From Sphingomonas sp. (lineage in GTDB: Bacteria; Pseudomonadota; Alphaproteobacteria; Sphingomonadales; Sphingomonadaceae): DNA of 64,000 nt. A program made the position numbers and the translations under genes. The stretch covers positions 124,001 to 188,000 of the forward strand of contig NZ_JAQZBC010000001.1 in the NCBI RefSeq assembly GCF_029239295.1. Reading direction: 5' to 3'. Shown one piece after another: positions 36,108 to 45,738 of this stretch (positions within the stretch are counted from its first letter, which is position 1; each line of letters begins with the position of its first letter). Below the pieces are notes generated by a model, which made no database searches, was not told the DNA's origin, and saw nothing but the letters and a program-made list of their open reading frames with translations.

Positions 36108-37250
<1,143 letters not shown>

Positions 37251-37257
37251 CTACCGA

Positions 37258-38625
37258 TCAGAAGACGCTGCCGAGCGCCTGCTTGCCGGAGCGCGGGCGG
37301 ATCTGGCTGTTGCGATAGTCGACGTCGCTCCAGTCGAGTTCCTTGAACTCCTGCCGGCGGGGGCCAAGGTAGCCGAACAGGAAGGCGGCGACCTTGCGCA
37401 TCTGGATCTCTTCCGCGCCTTCGGTGATGCGATAGCGGCGGTGGTGGCGATAGATGTGCTCGAACGCCTTGTGGCGCGAATAGCCGATGCCGCCATGCAC
37501 CTGCATCGCGCGATCGGCCGCCTCGCAGCAGAGGCGGTTGCCCCAGTAATTGCACATCGAGACCTTGTCCGAGAGGCGCTTTTCCACCTCGTGGTGCGGC
37601 ATCTGATCCATTTCCCAGGCGGTCTTGCGGATCAGCAGGCGAAGCATCTCGGCCTGGGTGGCGAGTTCCACCAGCGGGAACTGGATCGCCTGATTGCGGG
37701 CGAGATCCTCACCGAAGGGCTTGCGCTGGCGCGCGTAGCGGATCGATTCCTCGATGCAGTAGGTCGCAGCGCCCAGCGATGACGCGGCCTGGCGAATGCG
37801 GTTTTCGTGCACGAACGCCTGCGCGACCGGCAGACCGTTCTCCGGATCGCCGAAGATCGTCGTCTCTGGCACCCACACGTCGCTGAAGCTGACGCGCGGG
37901 TGATCGGTCGGCATGTTGAAGGTCCAGAGATATTCCTCGATCTTCACGCCTTCGTCGTCGGTCGGCACCAGGAAGCAGGTGATGCCCTTCGCCGCGCCAT
38001 CATCGCCGCTGGTGCGGGCGAACAGCGCGCAATGCGTCGCGACGTGCATGCCCGTCGTCCACATCTTCTCGCCGTTGATGACATAGCCCGGCACGCCGTT
38101 ACGCGATTCGGGTACCGCACGCGTTTCCATGTGGGTCGCGTCGGAGCCGTGATACGGTTCAGTCAGGCCGAAGGTCACTCGCCGGGTGCCGTTCAGCGTG
38201 CCGGTGATGAACTCTTCCTTCTGCTCCTCGGTGCCGAAATCGTCGAACATCTTGGCGAACGGGTTGTTCGCCACGATCGAATGCTCGGTCTGCAGATCGT
38301 TGTGGAGGCCGAGGCCCTTGGCGGCGAGATACTCGCGGATGACGCACATCCACAGGTTCGATCCGCCTTTGCCGCCGAACTTGGGATCCATGGCGAAGCG
38401 CAAATGGCCTGCCTTGTCCGAGCGGCGCTTTGCCTCGCGCATCAATCCTTCCCATTCGTGGCGCGGCAGGCCGCCGGCCTCGAAATCGGTCCGCGCATAT
38501 TCGCGCCGGTGGTCGAAGAAGCGGACATTATCGTCCGCGTCTTCCAGCGGTTTGATCTCCGCTTCGATGAAGGCATCCAGCTCCTTGAGATAGTCGAGCA
38601 GATCCTGCGGCAATCCGAAATCCAT
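37258..38625 (-). CDS. Acyl-CoA dehydrogenase of the ACAD10/11-LvaC type
   Basis: A 455-residue acyl-CoA dehydrogenase, longer than ordinary ones by an N-terminal part (DFGLPQDLLDYLKELDAFIEAEIKPLE...FDHRREYARTDFEAGGLPRHEWEGLMREAKRR) typical of the ACAD10/11 group. FGLTEPYHGSDATHMETRA and VINGEKMWTTGMHVA form the FAD domain and YRITEGAEEIQMRKVAAFLFG carries the base motif. Divergently 90 bp away are a kinase and a DUF6285 gene. In Pseudomonas putida the lva genes for 4-hydroxyacids encode the same trio: LvaA kinase, LvaB small partner and LvaC dehydrogenase, acting on 4-phosphoacyl-CoA. By analogy this enzyme may eliminate phosphate and isomerise, rather than dehydrogenate. Confidence 0.9.
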   Translation of the reverse strand: MDFGLPQDLLDYLKELDAFIEAEIKPLEDADDNVRFFDHRREYARTDFEAGGLPRHEWEGLMREAKRRSDKAGHLRFAMDPKFGGKGGSNLWMCVIREYLAAKGLGLHNDLQTEHSIVANNPFAKMFDDFGTEEQKEEFITGTLNGTRRVTFGLTEPYHGSDATHMETRAVPESRNGVPGYVINGEKMWTTGMHVATHCALFARTSGDDGAAKGITCFLVPTDDEGVKIEEYLWTFNMPTDHPRVSFSDVWVPETTIFGDPENGLPVAQAFVHENRIRQAASSLGAATYCIEESIRYARQRKPFGEDLARNQAIQFPLVELATQAEMLRLLIRKTAWEMDQMPHHEVEKRLSDKVSMCNYWGNRLCCEAADRAMQVHGGIGYSRHKAFEHIYRHHRRYRITEGAEEIQMRKVAAFLFGYLGPRRQEFKELDWSDVDYRNSQIRPRSGKQALGSVF

Positions 38626-38636
38626 GGCCCTCTCCC

Positions 38637-38715
38637 GAATTAAGTCGACTCTTTTAACTTGCGTAGCGGCCTCTCACGGATTTTAAAGCCCTTAATTAAA
38701 ACAAGCTGAGGGGCG
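38637..38715. promoter_or_regulatory. Divergent promoter region of the LvaC-like and kinase genes
   Basis: This AT-rich gap contains AATTAAGTCGACT followed by TTTTAACTT, giving an interrupted palindrome AAGT-n11-ACTT, then TTTTAAAG and TTAATTAAAAC. The ATTAAGTCGA core also occurs in the palindrome at 10030-10051, suggesting a shared regulator. Individual -10/-35 boxes cannot be fixed. Confidence 0.4.
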
Positions 38716-39732
38716 ATGGCGGAGAGGCTTTCGAAAGACGAGTTGGCGCGACGACTGTCGGCGCTCGCACCGCGCATGGCCCCCGGGGCCGGGCGCGTCG
38801 AGAATCTGGTACGGCTGACCGGCGGCGCGAGCATGGAGACATGGGCGTTCGATGCGGTGGGTGAGGGGGAGAGCAAGACTCCGCTTATCCTGCGGCGACG
38901 AACGCGAATGGTGGAAAATTCCGCCGTGTCGAAACCGCCGCTGCGCCGCGAGGCGGAGGCGATCGCCCGCGCCGTCGAGGCCGGCGTGCCGGCACCGATC
39001 GTCACCTATGTCTGCGACGAGGAGGCGGACGGGCTGGACGAGGCGTATGTCATGCACCGGGTCGGCGGCGAGACGCTGGGGAAGAAGATCACCGGCGATC
39101 CCGCGTTCGAGCCGGCACGCGGGAAACTGGCGCGGCAATGCGGCGCGGCCTTGGCGCGGATCCATTCGGTCGAGCCGCTGTCCGGCCTGGACCAGACCGA
39201 CGCCGAAACCACCCTCGCCAATTACGAGGCGACCTGGCGCGCGACTGGCGCCGTACGGCCGACGATCGAGGCGGCGTTCCGCTGGCTGGAGAAAAGGCTG
39301 CCGAAGGAGAAGGTCACGTCACGCTTCGTCCATGGCGATTTCCGCAACGGCAACATCATGGTCGATCCCGAACAGGGTCTGGTCGCGGTGCTCGACTGGG
39401 AGCTGGTGCACGTCGGCGATCCGGCCGAGGACATGGGCTGGCTATGCACCAACAGCTGGAAGTTCGGCCGCCCGGACCGTTACGTCGGCGGCTTCGGCGA
39501 GGTGCAGGACCTGCTCGACGGCTATGCCGAAGCGGGCGGCGAGCCGATCAGCGCCGCTCGAGTCGATTTCTGGTCGATGCTCGGCAGCCTCAAGTGGGGC
39601 GTCATGACGATGGGCATGTACGCCAGCTTCGCCTCTGACCCGACCGCCGGCCCCGAGCGAGGCGTGATCGGGCGCCGCCTGTCGGAAACAGAGGCCGACA
39701 TCGTGGCGATCATCGAAAGGAACGCGGCATGA
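38716..39732 (+). CDS. Aminoglycoside-phosphotransferase-fold kinase, LvaA/ACAD10-kinase-like
   Basis: A 338-residue small-molecule kinase. The N-lobe has VRLTGGASMETWAFDAV (nucleotide loop); the catalytic loop is FVHGDFRNGNIMVD (HGDxxxxN) and the metal site VAVLDWELVHVGDPAEDMGWL (DWE instead of DFG). This sub-group phosphorylates hydroxyacyl-CoA, not antibiotics: in mammals it is fused to acyl-CoA dehydrogenase in ACAD10/11, in Pseudomonas it is LvaA. Here it is divergent from an LvaC-like dehydrogenase and its TGA overlaps the ATG of the DUF6285 gene by 4 nt. It is probably not a resistance gene. Confidence 0.88.
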   Translation: MAERLSKDELARRLSALAPRMAPGAGRVENLVRLTGGASMETWAFDAVGEGESKTPLILRRRTRMVENSAVSKPPLRREAEAIARAVEAGVPAPIVTYVCDEEADGLDEAYVMHRVGGETLGKKITGDPAFEPARGKLARQCGAALARIHSVEPLSGLDQTDAETTLANYEATWRATGAVRPTIEAAFRWLEKRLPKEKVTSRFVHGDFRNGNIMVDPEQGLVAVLDWELVHVGDPAEDMGWLCTNSWKFGRPDRYVGGFGEVQDLLDGYAEAGGEPISAARVDFWSMLGSLKWGVMTMGMYASFASDPTAGPERGVIGRRLSETEADIVAIIERNAA

Positions 39733-40073
39733 TCACGCATCCCACCGCGCAGGAACTGGTGGCGGGCGTCGCGCAATGGCTGCCGGTCGACGGCAGCGCC
39801 AGCGTCTTTGGCCTGCGCGTGGCGCGCAATGCGCTGGAGATCGCCGCGCGCGACATGGCGATGAGCCCCGCGGCGGACGAGCGCGCTGTGGAGCGGATGC
39901 GCGCGCTGTTGCATCGCACCGGCACGCGCGACGAGCTGGACGCCGCCCTGGTCGCAGCAATTCGCAGCGGGACGATTGCGCCCGATGATCCCGCGCTGGT
40001 CGCGCATCTCAAGGCGACGGCGCTCGATACGATCGCGATCGACCAGCCCAAATATGCCCATACGCTTGGCTGA
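39729..40073 (+). CDS. DUF6285 small protein (LvaB-like kinase partner)
   Basis: A 114-residue helical protein: HPTAQELVAGVAQWLPVDGSASVFGLRVARNALEIAARD is the characteristic first part, ending in an acidic/hydrophobic helix and LKATALDTIAIDQPKYAHTLG. It has no enzyme motif. Proteins of this type accompany APH-fold kinases in acyl-CoA clusters; P. putida LvaB, of similar size and position, is needed for LvaA activity. The ATGA overlap with the kinase gene implies equimolar production, fitting a two-protein complex. Confidence 0.85.
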   Translation: MITHPTAQELVAGVAQWLPVDGSASVFGLRVARNALEIAARDMAMSPAADERAVERMRALLHRTGTRDELDAALVAAIRSGTIAPDDPALVAHLKATALDTIAIDQPKYAHTLG

Positions 40074-40212
40074 CTCGCTCCAGTCGCTATAGCCGCTCCA
40101 GACAACGCCGGCCGCGGCATGTCGATGGCGCCTTTACGCCAACCCCAAGTGGGGTGCGAAAGGTACTTCGGCCCACCACGGCGAGGCGATTTAGGTGTAG
40201 GTGGAGCAGATT

Positions 40213-41397
40213 ATGGCCGGCATGGGCGCGTTTGACTGGGCAGATCCCTTTCTTCTCGACGAGCAACTGACCGAGGACGAGCGGATGGTGCGCGATACCG
40301 CGCGCGCCTACGCTGAGGAAAAGCTCGCGCCGCGCATCATCGACGCCTTCGCCAACGAACACACCGATCCCGAAATCTTCCGCGAAATGGGTGCGCTCGG
40401 CCTGCTGGGCCCGACCGTGCCGGAGGAATATGGCGGCGTCGGCGCTTCCTACGTCGCCTATGGCCTCGTCGCGCGTGAGGTGGAGCGGATCGACTCGGGC
40501 TACCGCTCGATGATGAGCGTTCAGTCCAGCCTCGTGATGTACCCGATCCACGCTTATGGCTCGGAGGAGCAGAAGCGAAAGTACCTCCCCAAGCTCGCAA
40601 GCGGCGAATGGATCGGCTGTTTCGGCCTGACTGAGCCTGACGCCGGTTCCGACCCCGGCGGCATGAAGACCCGCGCAGTGAAGACCGACGGCGGCTACCG
40701 CATCAGCGGCAGCAAGACGTGGATCTCCAACGCGCCGATCGCCGACGTTTTCGTCATCTGGGCGAAGAGCGACGCGCATGGCGGCGCGATCCGCGGCTTC
40801 GTGCTGGAACAGGGCATGAAGGGCCTGTCCGCACCCAAGATCGAGGGCAAGCTCTCCTTGCGCGCCTCGATCACCGGCATGGTGATGATGGACGATGTCG
40901 AGGTCGGCGAGGACGCGCTGTTGCCCGATGTCGAGGGGCTGAAGGGACCGTTCGGCTGCCTCAACCGCGCACGCTACGGCATCAGCTGGGGCGCGATGGG
41001 CGCGGCGGAATTCTGCATGCACGCCGCGCGGCAATATGGCCTTGATCGGCATCAGTTCGGCCGGCCGCTCGCCGCGACTCAGCTATATCAAAAGAAGCTG
41101 GCTGACATGGAGACGGAGATCGCGCTCGGTCTGCAGGCAAGCTTGCGCGTGGGTCGCCTGATGGACGAGGGCCGCTTCGCGCCCGAAATGGTCTCCATCG
41201 TGAAGCGCAATAATGTCGGCAAGGCGCTCGATATCGCCCGTGTTTCGCGCGACATGCACGGCGGCAACGGCATCTCGGGCGAATATCAGGTGATGCGCCA
41301 CGTGATGAACCTGGAAACGGTGAACACCTATGAGGGGGCGCATGACGTTCACGCGCTGATCCTGGGCCGCGCGATCACCGGCATCCCGGCGTTCTGA
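40213..41397 (+). CDS. gcdH: Glutaryl-CoA dehydrogenase
   Basis: Oxidatively decarboxylates glutaryl-CoA to crotonyl-CoA in lysine, tryptophan and aromatic catabolism. 394 residues. [32 protein letters not shown] is the family start; [21 protein letters not shown] is the FAD loop; [23 protein letters not shown] is the GcdH-typical arginine segment that binds the substrate carboxylate, and the end [24 protein letters not shown] has the base Glu in TYEG. ATG at 40213 has GGAG 6 nt upstream; the GTG at 40201 is not needed. Next gene is a CoA-transferase 10 bp away. Confidence 0.95.
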
Positions 41398-41407
41398 GCG
41401 CCGACCC

Positions 41408-42520
41408 ATGAAGGACACCCCGCTCAAGGGCATCAAGGTGGTCGAGCTGGCCCGCATCCTTGCGGGCCCCTGGGCGGGGCAGATCCTGGCAGATCTCGGC
41501 GCCGAAGTGGTCAAGGTGCAAAGCCCGGCTGGCGACGACACGCGGACCTGGGGCCCGCCGTTCGTGGAGCACGATGGCGACCGGGCGGCGGCCTATTACC
41601 ATGCGTGCAACCGCGGAAAGACGAGCATCATTGCCGACTTTACCAAGGCCGAAGATGTCGCACGGGTGAAGGCGCTGATCGCCGATGCGGATGTAGTGAT
41701 CGAGAACTTCAAGGTCGGCGGGCTCGCCAAATACGGCCTCGATTATGCGAGCCTCGCGCCCGATCATCCGCGCCTTGTCTATTGTTCGATCACGGGCTTC
41801 GGCCAGACCGGGCCCTACGCCCATCGCGCCGGCTATGATTTCATCATCCAGGGCATGGGCGGGATCATGTCGCTGACCGGGGAGCCCGACGGCGCGCCGC
41901 AGAAGATCGGCGTTGCCTTCGCGGACGTGATGACAGGGCTCTATGCGACGATCGGCATCCAGGCGGCGTTGATGATGCGCGCACGGACTGGTCGCGGGCA
42001 GCAGGTCGATTGTGCACTGCTTGATACGATGGTCGGCGTGCTCGCCAATCAGGCGGCGAATTACTTCGCCAGCGGCGAGAACCCGCCGCGGATGGGCAAC
42101 GCCCATGCCAACGTCAGCCCCTATGCGGTGTTCCCGACCAGCGACGGCTGGTTCATCCTCGCCGTGGGCAATGACGCGCAATATCACCGCTTTGCCGCGA
42201 TCGTCGGCATTGGGCCGGACCCGCGCTGGGACAGCAACGCAGGGCGGATCGAGCATCGCGCGCCCTTGTTCGCGCTGATCGAGGAACGCTGCCGCACGTT
42301 CGAACGTGACGATCTTTTGGCAAAGCTGGAGGCGGCGGGGGTACCCGCGGGCCCGATCAACACCGTCGAGCAGGCGCTGAACGATCCGCAGGTGCAGGCG
42401 CGCGATATGGTGCTGCCGGTGAACGAAACGCGACCGATCGCTGGGCTACGCACGCCGATCCGTTTCTCGGACGCGGATCTTGCGTTGGACAAGGGCGCGC
42501 CGCCACTGCCACGGGCTTAA
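41408..42520 (+). CDS. Class III CoA-transferase (CaiB/BaiF), probably glutarate-acting
   Basis: Transfers CoA between carboxylic acids. 370 residues. LARILAGPWAGQILADLGAEVVKVQ is the CoA-binding N-terminal motif, YCSITGFGQTGPYAHRAGYDFIIQGMGG follows, and VAFADVMTGLYATIGIQAAL contains the catalytic Asp. It begins 10 bp past gcdH, the arrangement seen for succinate/hydroxymethylglutarate or succinate/glutarate CoA-transferase (SUGCT), which makes glutaryl-CoA for the dehydrogenase. Exact donor and acceptor are inferred from context only. Confidence 0.9.
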   Translation: MKDTPLKGIKVVELARILAGPWAGQILADLGAEVVKVQSPAGDDTRTWGPPFVEHDGDRAAAYYHACNRGKTSIIADFTKAEDVARVKALIADADVVIENFKVGGLAKYGLDYASLAPDHPRLVYCSITGFGQTGPYAHRAGYDFIIQGMGGIMSLTGEPDGAPQKIGVAFADVMTGLYATIGIQAALMMRARTGRGQQVDCALLDTMVGVLANQAANYFASGENPPRMGNAHANVSPYAVFPTSDGWFILAVGNDAQYHRFAAIVGIGPDPRWDSNAGRIEHRAPLFALIEERCRTFERDDLLAKLEAAGVPAGPINTVEQALNDPQVQARDMVLPVNETRPIAGLRTPIRFSDADLALDKGAPPLPRA

Positions 42521-42627
42521 CGCAGGCAGAAGCCGCGCCCTCGACCGACGTCAAGCGGCATAACTTTTGTTGTGCTCGCGTTCATGCCGCGATACCCCTC
42601 CCGTAAATTATACAGGAGAGAGCATCC

Positions 42628-43749
42628 GTGAGCACGCCACCCCTTGCCGGTATCCGTGTTGTCGAGTTTGCCGGGATCGGCCCGGGTCCCTTTGCCGGCA
42701 TGATGCTGGCCGATCATGGCGCGGAGGTGATCCGTATCGATCGTCCAGGCAAAACGCAGGGCAATGGCGTCGCGGAGAAGGATCCGCTGCTGCGCAGCCG
42801 CAAGTCGATCGGCATGGACCTGAAGGATCCGAAGTCGATCGCCGCGGTGCGCAAGATTGTGAAAGACGCCGATGCCATCATCGAGGGGTATCGCCCCGGC
42901 GTGATGGAGCGTCTCGGGCTGGGTCCCGACGTGCTGCTCGCCGACAATCCGAAGCTGGTTTACGGGCGCATGACGGGCTGGGGCCAATATGGGCCGATGG
43001 CGTCGGAGCCGGGTCACGACATCAATTACATCGCCATTTCAGGCGCGCTTCATGCCTTCGGCCGCAAGGGTGAGAAGCCAACCCCGCCGATCAATCTCGC
43101 TGGTGATTTCGGCGGCGGCGGCATGTTCCTCGCCTATGGCATGCTCGCCGCGCTGCTTCATGCCGCCCGCACGGGTGAGGGACAGGTGGTCGACGCCGCG
43201 ATGACCGATGGGTCGGCGGTGCTGATGACGATGATGTGGGGCTTCCGCGGCATGGGACGGTGGAGCGACGAGCGTGGCACCAACCTGCTCGATACCGCAG
43301 CGCATTTCTACGACACCTATGAAACGAGCGACGGCAAGTTCATCTCGCTCGGCGCGATCGAACCGCAATTCTACGCCGAGTTCCGCAAGGTCATGGGCCT
43401 GAGTGACGACAAATGGTCGGCGCAGATGGACCAGCGGCAATGGCCGGCGCTGAAGGACGAACTGACTGCCTTGTTCAAGACCAGGTCGCGCAACGAATGG
43501 GTCGACGCGTTCAAGGGTCATGACGTCTGCTTTGCCCCGGTGCTCGGGTTCGACGACGCCTATAATGATGCGCACAACCAGGCGCGCGGCACCTTTGTTG
43601 AGGCCGGCGGGATCAAGCAGCCGGCGCCGGCGCCGCGCTATTCCAAGAGCGGCACCGTGGCGCCCGACCTGGGGGGTGAGCGGCAGGACGCCGCCGTGCT
43701 CCGCGACTTAGGCTTCGCACCGGACGAAATCGCCGCACTCGGCTATTGA
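42628..43749 (+). CDS. Alpha-methylacyl-CoA racemase-like CaiB/BaiF protein
   Basis: A 373-residue member of the same fold but with racemase hallmarks: EPGHDINYIAISGALHAFGR has the active-site His, and PPINLAGDFGGGGMFLAYGMLAALL the Asp of the His/Asp pair used to epimerise 2-methylacyl-CoA. It would let (R)-branched acyl-CoAs enter beta-oxidation, or act on bile-acid/isoprenoid chains. GTG start with AGGAGAG 6 nt upstream. 107 bp separates it from the CoA-transferase, so it may have its own promoter. A long hairpin follows. Confidence 0.88.
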   Translation: MSTPPLAGIRVVEFAGIGPGPFAGMMLADHGAEVIRIDRPGKTQGNGVAEKDPLLRSRKSIGMDLKDPKSIAAVRKIVKDADAIIEGYRPGVMERLGLGPDVLLADNPKLVYGRMTGWGQYGPMASEPGHDINYIAISGALHAFGRKGEKPTPPINLAGDFGGGGMFLAYGMLAALLHAARTGEGQVVDAAMTDGSAVLMTMMWGFRGMGRWSDERGTNLLDTAAHFYDTYETSDGKFISLGAIEPQFYAEFRKVMGLSDDKWSAQMDQRQWPALKDELTALFKTRSRNEWVDAFKGHDVCFAPVLGFDDAYNDAHNQARGTFVEAGGIKQPAPAPRYSKSGTVAPDLGGERQDAAVLRDLGFAPDEIAALGY

Positions 43750-43757
43750 TCGGGATC

Positions 43758-43784
43758 GCCACCTCGACCGTGCGTCGGGGTGGC
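43758..43784 (+). terminator. Hairpin after the racemase-like gene
   Basis: An 11-bp stem (GCCACCTCGAC / GTCGGGGTGGC, one T-G wobble) with a 5-nt loop starts 9 bp past the stop. Only a short T-poor tail follows (GCTGTTCGT), so termination efficiency is uncertain. Confidence 0.55.
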
Positions 43785-43820
43785 GCTGTTCGTCTCGGGA
43801 TTTCCCGCTAAGACGCGCGT

Positions 43821-44357
43821 ATGACGAAGCTGACCGTCAATAATGAAGCGGTCGAGTATCTGCTCGACCCAGACACGCCGCTCCTCTGGGCGCTGCGGGA
43901 TGCGTCCAATCTGACCGGCGCCAAATATGGCTGCGGCACCGGCGCCTGTGGAGCCTGTACCGTCGATGTCGATGGCCGGGCGGTACGGTCCTGTCAGGTG
44001 ACGATCGCGCAAGTGGAGGGAAGCTTCGTCACGACGATCGAGGGCTTGTCCCGCGATCGCGCACATCCGGTTCAGCTGGCGATGCTCGACGGCAACGTGG
44101 TGCAATGCGGCTTCTGCATTCCCGGCATGGTGATGGCCGCGGCGGTGTTGATCAAGGACAGGCGTGATCCGTCCGAGGCCGATATTCGCCGGTCGGTCAC
44201 CAATCTGTGCCGGTGCGGCATCTATCCCCGCCTCGTCGAGGCCGTTCAAAAGGCGGCGCGCGTTGCCCGTGGCGACGAAACGATCAACGCCGGCGCCCGC
44301 CCTGGAGTGGACCCGGCGGAGGCCGCACGTTCAATCCCGGCCCTCAGTCCTCGGTGA
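43821..44357 (+). CDS. Orphan [2Fe-2S] subunit of a xanthine-oxidase-type molybdenum hydroxylase
   Basis: A 178-residue protein with both iron-sulfur domains of the small subunit: a plant-ferredoxin cluster in YGCGTGACGACTV plus SCQ, and the helical C-terminal cluster in VVQCGFCIPGMVM and NLCRCGIYPRLV. This is the IorA/XdhA-type electron-transfer subunit of isoquinoline, nicotinate or aldehyde oxidoreductases. The expected large molybdopterin subunit (~700 residues) is not adjacent; the next gene is a convergent MFS carrier overlapping by 14 bp. It either pairs with a subunit encoded elsewhere or serves another enzyme. Confidence 0.9.
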   Translation: MTKLTVNNEAVEYLLDPDTPLLWALRDASNLTGAKYGCGTGACGACTVDVDGRAVRSCQVTIAQVEGSFVTTIEGLSRDRAHPVQLAMLDGNVVQCGFCIPGMVMAAAVLIKDRRDPSEADIRRSVTNLCRCGIYPRLVEAVQKAARVARGDETINAGARPGVDPAEAARSIPALSPR

Positions 44358-45603
44358 TCCTGCTGTTCGCGCGCGTGTCACGCATACGCAGGTAGACAAT
44401 CAGAGATACTCCAATCATTCCCGTCACATACCAGTAGAAGCCGCGTTCCCATCCGAGGTCCTTGAACTTTAGCGCGACATATTCCGCGGTCCCGCCGAAT
44501 AGCGTATTCGCCAGCGCATAGGGCAGGGCGACACCCAGCGCGCGGATGTTGGCGGGGAACAGCTCAGCCTTCACGACGGCATTGATCGACGTGTACCCCG
44601 TCACGATCACCAACGCCGCCATCACGAGCAGCCCTGCAACGATCGGATTGCGCGCGGTCTCAAGCGCAACGAAGATCGGATAGGTGAGCAGGCAACCCAG
44701 GATGCCGAACGTGACCATCAGCGGTTTTCGTCCGATACGATCGCTCAGACCCCCGGCGATCGGTTGCAGACACATGAAGAAGAACAGCGTCACCGCATTG
44801 ATTCGGCTGGCAACCTCCCGATCGAACCCACTGGTATTTACAAGGAATTTCTGCATGTAGATCGAGTAAGCGTAGAAGGCGAGCGTGCCTCCCGCGGTCA
44901 GCAGCATGACGGTCGCGGTCTCGCGCGGATGATGCGTCACCAGCGTCCAGAAGCCCGATTTCGGCCCGGTGCTCTTCTTGAAGCTCTCGGTTTCTGCAAG
45001 CCCGCGGCGAATGCGGAACACCACGATCGCCAGCACGCCGCCGATTGCGAAGGGCACCCGCCAGCCCCAGGCATCGAGCGTGGCTTCATCCATCACGAGC
45101 TGCAGTACCAGGAGCACGAGCAATGCGGTCAGCTGTCCAGCAATCAACGTGACGTACTGAAAACTGGAGTAAAAACCGCGCCGCTCGCGGCCGGCCATCT
45201 CCGACAGGTAAGTTGCGCTGGCGCCATATTCGCCGCCGACCGACAGCCCCTGCATGAGGCGGGCGAGCACCAGCAGGGCCGGGGCGAAGACGCCGATGGT
45301 AGCGTATCCCGGAGTGACCGCGATCAGGAGGGACCCTGCGCACATCAACGTCACTGACAGCGTCAGGCCGGCTTTGCGCCCTCGACGATCGGCATAGACA
45401 CCCATGATCCAGGCGCCGATCGGTCGCATCACGAAGCCAACGGCAAACACCGCCGCCGCGCTCAACAGTTGCGCTGTGCGATCCTCCGCCGGGAAGAAGT
45501 GCGGCGCGAAATACAGCGAGAAAGCCGCATAGGCGTACCAATCATACCATTCGACGAGATTGCCCGTCGATCCACCGATGATTGATTTCAGCCGCGGGTT
45601 CAT
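44344..45603 (-). CDS. MFS transporter, metabolite:H+ symporter family (KgtP-like)
   Basis: A 419-residue, twelve-span carrier. The start MNPRLKSIIGGSTGNLVEWYDWYAYAAFSLYFAPHFFP is characteristic of alpha-ketoglutarate/dicarboxylate symporters (MHS family). GVYADRRGRKAGLTLSV is the MFS signature in loop 2-3, repeated as GGLSDRIGRKPLMV between helices 8 and 9; RLMQGLSVGGEYGASATYLSEMAG is the second MHS signature. ATG at 45603 is preferred to an in-frame GTG 30 nt upstream because the conserved block begins here. Location between catabolic CoA genes suggests uptake of a dicarboxylate such as glutarate or 2-oxoglutarate. Confidence 0.9.
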   Translation of the reverse strand: MNPRLKSIIGGSTGNLVEWYDWYAYAAFSLYFAPHFFPAEDRTAQLLSAAAVFAVGFVMRPIGAWIMGVYADRRGRKAGLTLSVTLMCAGSLLIAVTPGYATIGVFAPALLVLARLMQGLSVGGEYGASATYLSEMAGRERRGFYSSFQYVTLIAGQLTALLVLLVLQLVMDEATLDAWGWRVPFAIGGVLAIVVFRIRRGLAETESFKKSTGPKSGFWTLVTHHPRETATVMLLTAGGTLAFYAYSIYMQKFLVNTSGFDREVASRINAVTLFFFMCLQPIAGGLSDRIGRKPLMVTFGILGCLLTYPIFVALETARNPIVAGLLVMAALVIVTGYTSINAVVKAELFPANIRALGVALPYALANTLFGGTAEYVALKFKDLGWERGFYWYVTGMIGVSLIVYLRMRDTRANSRITED

Positions 45604-45738
45604 GCCTTCAACCTGTTCTAACGACGAACCCACGGGGTTCGACCGGTGCAGCGCTCCTTACACACCCGCGTAGAAGAGGTGAAAAGAGGTTGATGCACCG
45701 CCGTAACGGCGTGAAAGAAGACTGAAGGGAGAGGCGCG

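Follow-up and report, generated by a model that had tools for sequence, protein, structure and literature searches.

A kinase-DUF6285-dehydrogenase gene trio in Sphingomonas, probably a separate version of levulinate and ACAD10/11 chemistry

Introduction

What is the function of a gene trio that places an APH-fold kinase and a DUF6285 protein beside an acyl-CoA dehydrogenase (ACAD)? The question is raised by positions 37258-40073 of a 64,000-nucleotide stretch of a Sphingomonas sp. genome (here called the window), for which the initial annotation had proposed a module of the Lva (levulinate) type with a dehydrogenase resembling mammalian ACAD10 and ACAD11. Here, we find that the trio is a conserved three-gene module. 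It is well supported that its kinase half is LvaA/LvaB-like and that its dehydrogenase, judged by its residues, is not of the LvaC or ACAD10/11 type. The trio is probably a separate version of levulinate and ACAD10/11 chemistry, with a likely hydroxyacyl-coenzyme A (CoA) kinase complex and a dedicated dehydrogenase. In the literature that we searched on DUF6285, the Lva genes and phospho-acyl-CoA, which mostly excludes subscription papers, no title or abstract start described a second module of this kind, and the term "DUF6285" was absent from the texts of the searched library, most subscription papers lying outside it.

Results and discussion

The kinase gene (38716-39732, plus strand) encodes 338 amino acids with the motifs HGDFRNGN and DWE and matches Pfam APH (PF01636) at 124.8 bits. 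Its stop codon shares the letters ATGA (39729-39732) with the start of the next gene, a 4-nt overlap. This second gene (39729-40073, plus strand) encodes a 114-residue DUF6285 protein of the LvaB family (PF19802, 90.2 bits against a Pfam gathering cut-off of 28.1), the single DUF6285 match in the 3.47-Mb genome. The dehydrogenase gene (37258-38625, minus strand; 455 amino acids with Pfam Acyl-CoA_dh domains) is transcribed divergently, its start lying 90 bp (38626-38715) from that of the kinase gene, so that kinase and dehydrogenase are separate genes and not one polypeptide as in ACAD10 and ACAD11. We use "ACADw" as a working name for this dehydrogenase and its relatives. The initial annotation had described all of this architecture, including the HGDxxxxN and DWE motifs of the kinase, and the sequence and the Pfam matches confirm it.

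The identity given to the dehydrogenase did not hold up in the same way. In mouse ACAD11, R626, H634 and R637 are reported as phosphate ligands and D753 as the catalytic base, all of them conserved in LvaC (PMC12440821). At these columns (mouse ACAD11 numbering), the window ACADw has F, Q, S and Glu; the LvaC-type active-site residues that the initial annotation had singled out were looked for and are not present. We sorted ACADs into classes by bit score first and read the diagnostic columns afterwards. The ACADw class (>550 bits to the window protein) carried F, Q, S or G, and E in 104/104 members and the LvaC-scored class (>250 bits to LvaC) carried R/H/R/D in 10/10, with the general Arg631 retained in both; 9 of the 21 ACADs in neither score class were R/H/R/D. 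With neither the R/H/R cluster that binds phosphate nor an Asp as the catalytic base, ACADw is, by its residues, not an LvaC or ACAD10/11-type enzyme. The best PDB match of the window protein is caffeyl-CoA reductase CarC, at 144.5 bits compared with 87 bits for ACAD11.

The two types nevertheless have residues in common. When classes were set by residue signature (124 ACADw and 26 R/H/R/D sequences, with gapped or odd-signature rows omitted, and 17 others), N476, H597 and Q624 were shared by both (96-100 percent) and found in 0/17 other ACADs; D722, R747 and R750 were also shared, occurring in 12-35 percent of the others. ACADw forms one clade in our trees (support, 100). A fork joining it to the LvaC and ACAD10/11 type had a Shimodaira-Hasegawa-like approximate likelihood ratio test (SH-aLRT) support of 90 in one tree; in a more careful tree, the fork with ACAD10/11 had a support of 65/80 and included one long-branch row of neither type. 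A tree holding the two together was not rejected by an approximately unbiased (AU) test (p-AU = 0.376), and ACADw is thus a possible sister clade. This possible relation, the shared residues and the adjacency of the same three protein families are what an ordinary Lva-type module, with an ACAD10/11/LvaC homologue as its dehydrogenase, would predict. We nonetheless give that reading very little credence: the four diagnostic residues differ in all 104 ACADw relatives, the window kinase falls outside the LvaA clade (see below), and LvaD, LvaE and LvaR are not found among the six flanking genes scanned.

We then asked how consistently the three families occur together. From a genome scan, we named 80 ACADw loci and measured kinase distances between hidden Markov model (HMM) envelopes. 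In 50 of these, a kinase of the same family lay 58-1650 bp away and the stretch contained a DUF6285 match, with ACADw and kinase divergent in 14 and codirectional in 36. From the 30 unlinked loci, some of which are at contig ends, 25 were taken and 24 genomes searched; DUF6285 was present elsewhere in 23. The sole miss, the genome of locus L143, appears to be identical to G134, where a second ACADw copy lies beside a kinase with a DUF6285-like tail. The trio recurs in alpha- and gammaproteobacteria, so the arrangement is more than chance.

For statistical comparison, we used a draw of 147 genomes taken as Sphingomonadales, the window genome included, and a draw of 348 genomes taken as Pseudomonadota. 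In the order draw, DUF6285 was present in 41 genomes and ACADw in 46, and all 41 DUF6285 genomes had ACADw (Fisher test, P = 3e-31 with genomes as the unit and 6e-13 with genera [16/16 versus 1/39], phylogeny being ignored in both). Only 5 of the 106 genomes without DUF6285 had ACADw, and in these (loci L238, L239, L240, L242 and L243), the kinase beside ACADw has a C-terminal tail that scores 22-35 bits with our own DUF6285 HMM, built from 32/58 loci. These tails may be decayed DUF6285 domains; the search for them was made beside ACADw in these 5 genomes and did not cover the other 101. In the phylum draw, where up to 4 candidates per genome were scored for ACADw and 22 earlier-found genomes were recovered, 39 genomes had DUF6285, 30 had ACADw and 29 had both, and the only ACADw genome without DUF6285 (G051) is one of the five decayed-tail cases. 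Each of the ten DUF6285 genomes without ACADw carries an ACAD of the LvaC type (≥300 bits). In 8 of the ten, this enzyme has R/H/R/D and lies at most 3 kb from the kinase; in G362 and G393, it is LvaC type by score and unlinked to the kinase. Outside the order, 6/22 ACADw genomes also had an ACAD that scored ≥300 bits with LvaC. A DUF6285 genome of the phylum draw therefore carries ACADw or, failing that, the LvaC type, and the association between DUF6285 and ACADw is strongly indicated to be real. Ten same-genus genomes among those listed had no DUF6285 match, and the module is therefore patchy in Sphingomonas. Farther afield, a DUF6285-like gene (22 bits, by our own HMM alone), a kinase gene and ACADw are consecutive in Nocardia farcinica.

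DUF6285 itself can be tied to a named protein. The annotated LvaB of plasmid p12939-PER (NZ_MF344569, locus L103), encoded together with a prpR-like regulator, a kinase, an ACAD, an SDR-like dehydrogenase and an acyl-CoA synthetase, matches PF19802 at 85.3 bits. Because this protein matches the same family as the window protein, DUF6285 is, at the family level, LvaB, in agreement with the initial annotation. For Pseudomonas putida, a pulldown of LvaB with LvaA has been reported, as has a requirement for LvaB during growth on levulinate (PMC6692424). DUF6285 and the kinase are fused into one open reading frame (ORF) in 18 of the 50 linked named loci. The predicted structure of DUF6285 has five helices (pLDDT, 90; pTM, 0.74), and a fold search with this model against the PDB gave nothing at an E value of ≤0.001 (best, 4.1). 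For a fused kinase-DUF6285 model (pTM, 0.85), fold matches span residues 1-321, which is the kinase part alone.

To place the window kinase, we thinned 136 aligned kinases by identity to 102 and built a quick tree, with SH-aLRT as its only support measure. Seven kinases in which DUF6285 had been overlooked, truncated or decayed were reassigned manually. The DUF6285-linked kinases (84 rows) cluster together (SH-aLRT, 98). The window kinase belongs to a clade of ACADw-linked and unlinked kinases (70 rows; SH-aLRT, 96) that adjoins a clade of LvaC-linked kinases including LvaA (12 rows; SH-aLRT, 99); one Thermus kinase linked to the LvaC type and one unlinked kinase are outside both. Thirteen of 14 DUF6285-free ACAD10/11-like kinases, together with ACAD11, 3dxp and 9o56, split from the rest with a support of 99, and the fourteenth (L125) and four haloarchaeal kinases form long branches on the other side of that split. 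Asp220 and Asn225 are invariant in every kinase group, and the catalytic D/N/D columns are conserved. In the PDB, the window kinase is closest in sequence to 3dxp, a putative phosphotransferase (Reut_A1007; 1.8e-11), with macrolide phosphotransferases matching at 2.7e-4 to 2.8e-4. Its scores of 18.8-24.8 bits against NCBIfam antibiotic-kinase models are far below their cut-offs (205-650), which bears out the view that it is not of the antibiotic type, although the tree did not include antibiotic kinases. What stands of the proposed Lva-type module is thus a real module with an LvaB-family protein and a kinase beside the LvaA lineage; its dehydrogenase belongs to another class.

On balance, if by a little, we favor the view that the trio is a catabolic kinase-DUF6285-ACADw module that activates a hydroxyacyl-CoA with ATP, parallel to Lva. 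The kinase and the DUF6285 protein would form one two-subunit kinase, as LvaA does with LvaB, and would phosphorylate an acyl-CoA on a hydroxyl of its acyl chain, with C4 as the most probable position. DUF6285 would be noncatalytic, completing or stabilizing the substrate or CoA site. ACADw would take the phosphorylated acyl-CoA: Glu402 would abstract the alpha proton, hydride would pass to flavin adenine dinucleotide (FAD) and phosphate would leave, yielding an enoyl- or dienoyl-CoA for beta-oxidation. ACADw would in this way fill the place that LvaC has in the levulinate operon, from a separate clade and with a re-tooled active site. The parts of this scheme differ in strength. We are fairly confident that the substrate is a hydroxyacyl-CoA, but the chances are about even that the hydroxyl is at the 4-position, and likewise about even that the phosphorylated intermediate is handled by ACADw itself. 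ACADw has invariant basic residues (e.g., H394, H395 and R397) just ahead of Glu402, and it may be speculated that such residues form an alternative anion site. More tentatively, and with some doubt, the kinase-DUF6285 enzyme and ACADw, as a dehydrogenase class not recognized before, could be a second, independently conserved "phosphorylate and eliminate" solution in acyl-CoA catabolism, based on a His/Arg-rich site and a Glu base and present in Proteobacteria, Nocardia and haloarchaea (for whose small protein we found no relationship to DUF6285).

Several observations weigh against this mechanism, the first being that ACADw has none of R626, H634, R637 and D753, which ACAD11 needs for phosphoacyl-CoA. 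Moreover, dehydrogenases with these residues are available elsewhere. The window genome has R/H/R/D ACADs at C22, C7 and C17: the C22 enzyme (L129, 8720-9877) is an LvaC homologue with 57 percent identity and no kinase match in its 19-kb stretch, and the C7 enzyme (L130, 8239-11868) lies beside a DUF6285-free kinase. ACAD10/11-like ACADs (E ≤ 1e-90, scored by similarity and not by residues) occur in 122/147 genomes of the order draw, including 41/41 with DUF6285, and in 13/124 loci (Sulfitobacter L099 among them; eight from one genome family), ACADw is accompanied in its stretch by an R/H/R/D ACAD. As all 41 DUF6285 genomes have an ACAD10/11-like enzyme, the elimination could be done in trans by such a protein. 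The kinase and DUF6285 would then phosphorylate, an R/H/R/D ACAD elsewhere would eliminate, and ACADw, with Glu at the base position and no phosphate cluster, would carry out an ordinary dehydrogenation before or after. We consider this division of labor unlikely. ACAD10/11-like ACADs are frequent without DUF6285 too (81/106 genomes), 28/41 DUF6285 genomes lack a close LvaC homologue (E ≤ 1e-80), and the LvaC type found within 3 kb of the kinase in 8/10 ACADw-free DUF6285 genomes is placed as if replacing ACADw. A close LvaC homologue was present in 13/41 DUF6285 genomes and 11/106 others (P = 0.005), and it leans to DUF6285 genomes too, much less than ACADw does.

Other observations against the proposed scheme concern the trio as a unit. 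On four haloarchaeal plasmids, ACADw, a 157- to 159-amino-acid protein and a kinase adjoin, and the small protein cannot be counted as DUF6285: as a candidate for that family, it gave hmmsearch E values of 0.1 to 0.37 and an hhalign probability of 2.6 percent, and no Pfam family matched it above the cut-off. Seven of 12 plasmid records with ACADw were read; a kinase lies beside ACADw in six, and around ACADw of plasmid QY30, neither a kinase nor a DUF6285 match was found in the 19-kb stretch. Conversely, in Variovorax L101 (8995-11518) and in G453 (L084), DUF6285-linked kinases lie beside ACADs that belong to neither type and may represent a third class of partner. Finally, lvaB was reportedly not found in the region analyzed of the Pseudomonas citronellolis levulinate cluster (PMC6692424), and DUF6285 may therefore not be obligate.

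How DUF6285 might contribute to the kinase is hinted at by one column of the alignment. Arg176 of ACAD11 has been modeled at CoA (PMC12440821). The window kinase has Thr in the aligned column, in a region that aligns poorly, and Arg occupies this column in 0/110 DUF6285-linked kinases and 3/3 PDB chains. It is also present in 8/12 kinases having neither DUF6285 nor a nearby ACAD, in 1/3 kinases without DUF6285 beside the LvaC type and in 6/8 kinases near ACADw without a detected DUF6285, four of them haloarchaeal. Absence of this Arg fits, but does not show, that DUF6285 has assumed part of the CoA site. Because 49/110 DUF6285-linked kinases have an Arg at most 4 columns away and 4/4 haloarchaeal kinases beside ACADw retain the Arg, which both count against our reading, the argument from this motif is weak.

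The absence of Arg176 from DUF6285-linked kinases could also mean that the target hydroxyl sits at a position other than C4, or on a compound other than a CoA thioester (e.g., a tertiary alcohol), and that ACADw acts later on a CoA ester. A precedent is the ATP-dependent dehydration by a kinase and a lyase that has been proposed for a 25-hydroxysteroid (PMC8449060). Consistent with it, a model of the fused relative at L175 matches the 25-hydroxysteroid kinase structure 9ft5 (Z = 23.5; root mean square deviation, 3.8; 308 residues), ranking after 3dxp (Z = 26.3) and 3ats (Z = 23.7), where matches within 1 are tied. The sequence matches point elsewhere, however: a phmmer search with the window kinase listed 3dxp, 9o56 and ACAD11 but not 25-hydroxysteroid kinase (E ≤ 1e-3), and LvaA of the neighboring clade is reported to use 4-hydroxyvaleryl-CoA (PMC6692424, PMC11342911). 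We therefore regard a non-CoA or non-C4 target as improbable and retain the hydroxyacyl-CoA module as the preferred reading.

The surroundings of the trio do not fix its substrate. The divergent intergenic region (38626-38715) contains a block, CGCTACGCAAGTTAAAAGA..TCGACTTAA, that varies little among 6 of the 10 Sphingomonas loci aligned and is a candidate site for a shared regulator. Downstream of ACADw is a gene for an NMO/FabK-like flavoprotein (36108-37214, minus strand; PF03060, 195.9 bits). Such a gene lies beside the trio in all 11 divergent-order Sphingomonas loci (L134-L142, L145, L146) and also near it in L079 and in Sulfitobacter L099, and its product is possibly an accessory of the pathway, perhaps a reductase. 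The six flanking genes scanned (36108-45633) encode this flavoprotein, an ACAD, two CoA-transferases, a 2Fe-2S protein and a major facilitator superfamily (MFS) transporter; LvaD (a short-chain dehydrogenase/reductase [SDR]), LvaE (a CoA ligase) and LvaR are not among them. The remark that the locus lacks the rest of the lva operon is thus correct for these genes, although we see a parallel module rather than a depleted Lva cluster. Where the initial annotation spoke of glutaryl-CoA and racemase-type neighbors, we find a glutaryl-CoA dehydrogenase (GCDH)-like ACAD gene (40201) followed by two genes of CoA-transferase family III (41408 and 42628), each scoring below the NCBIfam cut-offs. GCDH, CoA-transferase and a fused carboxylase (the latter named by eye) are neighbors in only part of the Sphingomonas loci; patchy as they are, they give little guidance on the substrate.

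Sphingomonas sp. Ag1 and IC-11 have ACADw proteins with 99 percent identity to the window protein, and there the neighbors are kept too. On the Sulfitobacter plasmid (L099), the trio lies amid ligase, hydratase and thiolase genes, an observation that favors our scheme. We also clustered the ORFs of the 80 loci and scanned 10 representatives, which gave no pointer to a substrate: one was an AMP-ligase, one an enoyl-CoA hydratase and one of the DNA polymerase I family, and 7/10 had no Pfam match and are probably wrong-frame ORFs. In the haloarchaeal loci L245, L246 and L250, the genes for ACADw, the 157- to 159-amino-acid protein and the kinase are followed by hydantoinase/oxoprolinase A and B and luciferase-like oxidoreductase genes, with acetoacetate decarboxylase family genes nearby in L246 and L250. 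On Thermus plasmid pHC11 (L100, 8962-10932), the kinase and DUF6285 genes are followed by a histidine phosphatase gene; such a gene has been described for the levulinate cluster of P. citronellolis, too (PMC6692424).

DUF6285 is linked to these kinases by its fusion to them, by the presence of two kinase clades and by the split between ACADw and LvaC types, and ACADw becomes a named dehydrogenase family for functional study. In sphingomonads, Caulobacteraceae and Bradyrhizobium, many genes labeled "phosphotransferase family protein" are predicted to encode hydroxyacyl-CoA kinases and not antibiotic kinases. The loci also offer a natural swap: kinase complexes of one kind are paired with either of two dehydrogenase classes, only one of which has the residues important in ACAD11.

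Comparison with known systems

The closest likeness is to Pseudomonas lvaA-lvaB-lvaC, in which an APH-fold kinase gene is likewise overlapped by a DUF6285/LvaB gene and accompanied by an ACAD, the kinases being in neighboring clades. The window trio differs from it in a dehydrogenase of another clade with F/Q/S/E where LvaC has R/H/R/D, in its divergent gene order, in scanned flanking genes without LvaD, LvaE and LvaR, and in a kinase that lies outside the LvaA clade in the quick SH-aLRT tree. Mammalian ACAD10 and ACAD11 (PDB 8v3u and 8v3v) share with it the combination of kinase and ACAD as well as N476, H597 and Q624. The window, in contrast, has separate genes and a DUF6285 protein, no Arg in the Arg176 column and none of R626, H634, R637 and D753. 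The 25-hydroxysteroid kinase of Sterolibacterium denitrificans (9ft5, 9fsg) has the APH fold and turns an alcohol into a phosphate ester from which phosphate can leave; its substrate, however, is a steroid without CoA, and it gave no sequence match to the window kinase at E ≤ 1e-3. Finally, 3dxp (Reut_A1007) leads both the PDB sequence matches of the window kinase and the fold matches of the fused relative, yet it groups with the DUF6285-free ACAD10/11-like kinases, whereas the window kinase is placed elsewhere.

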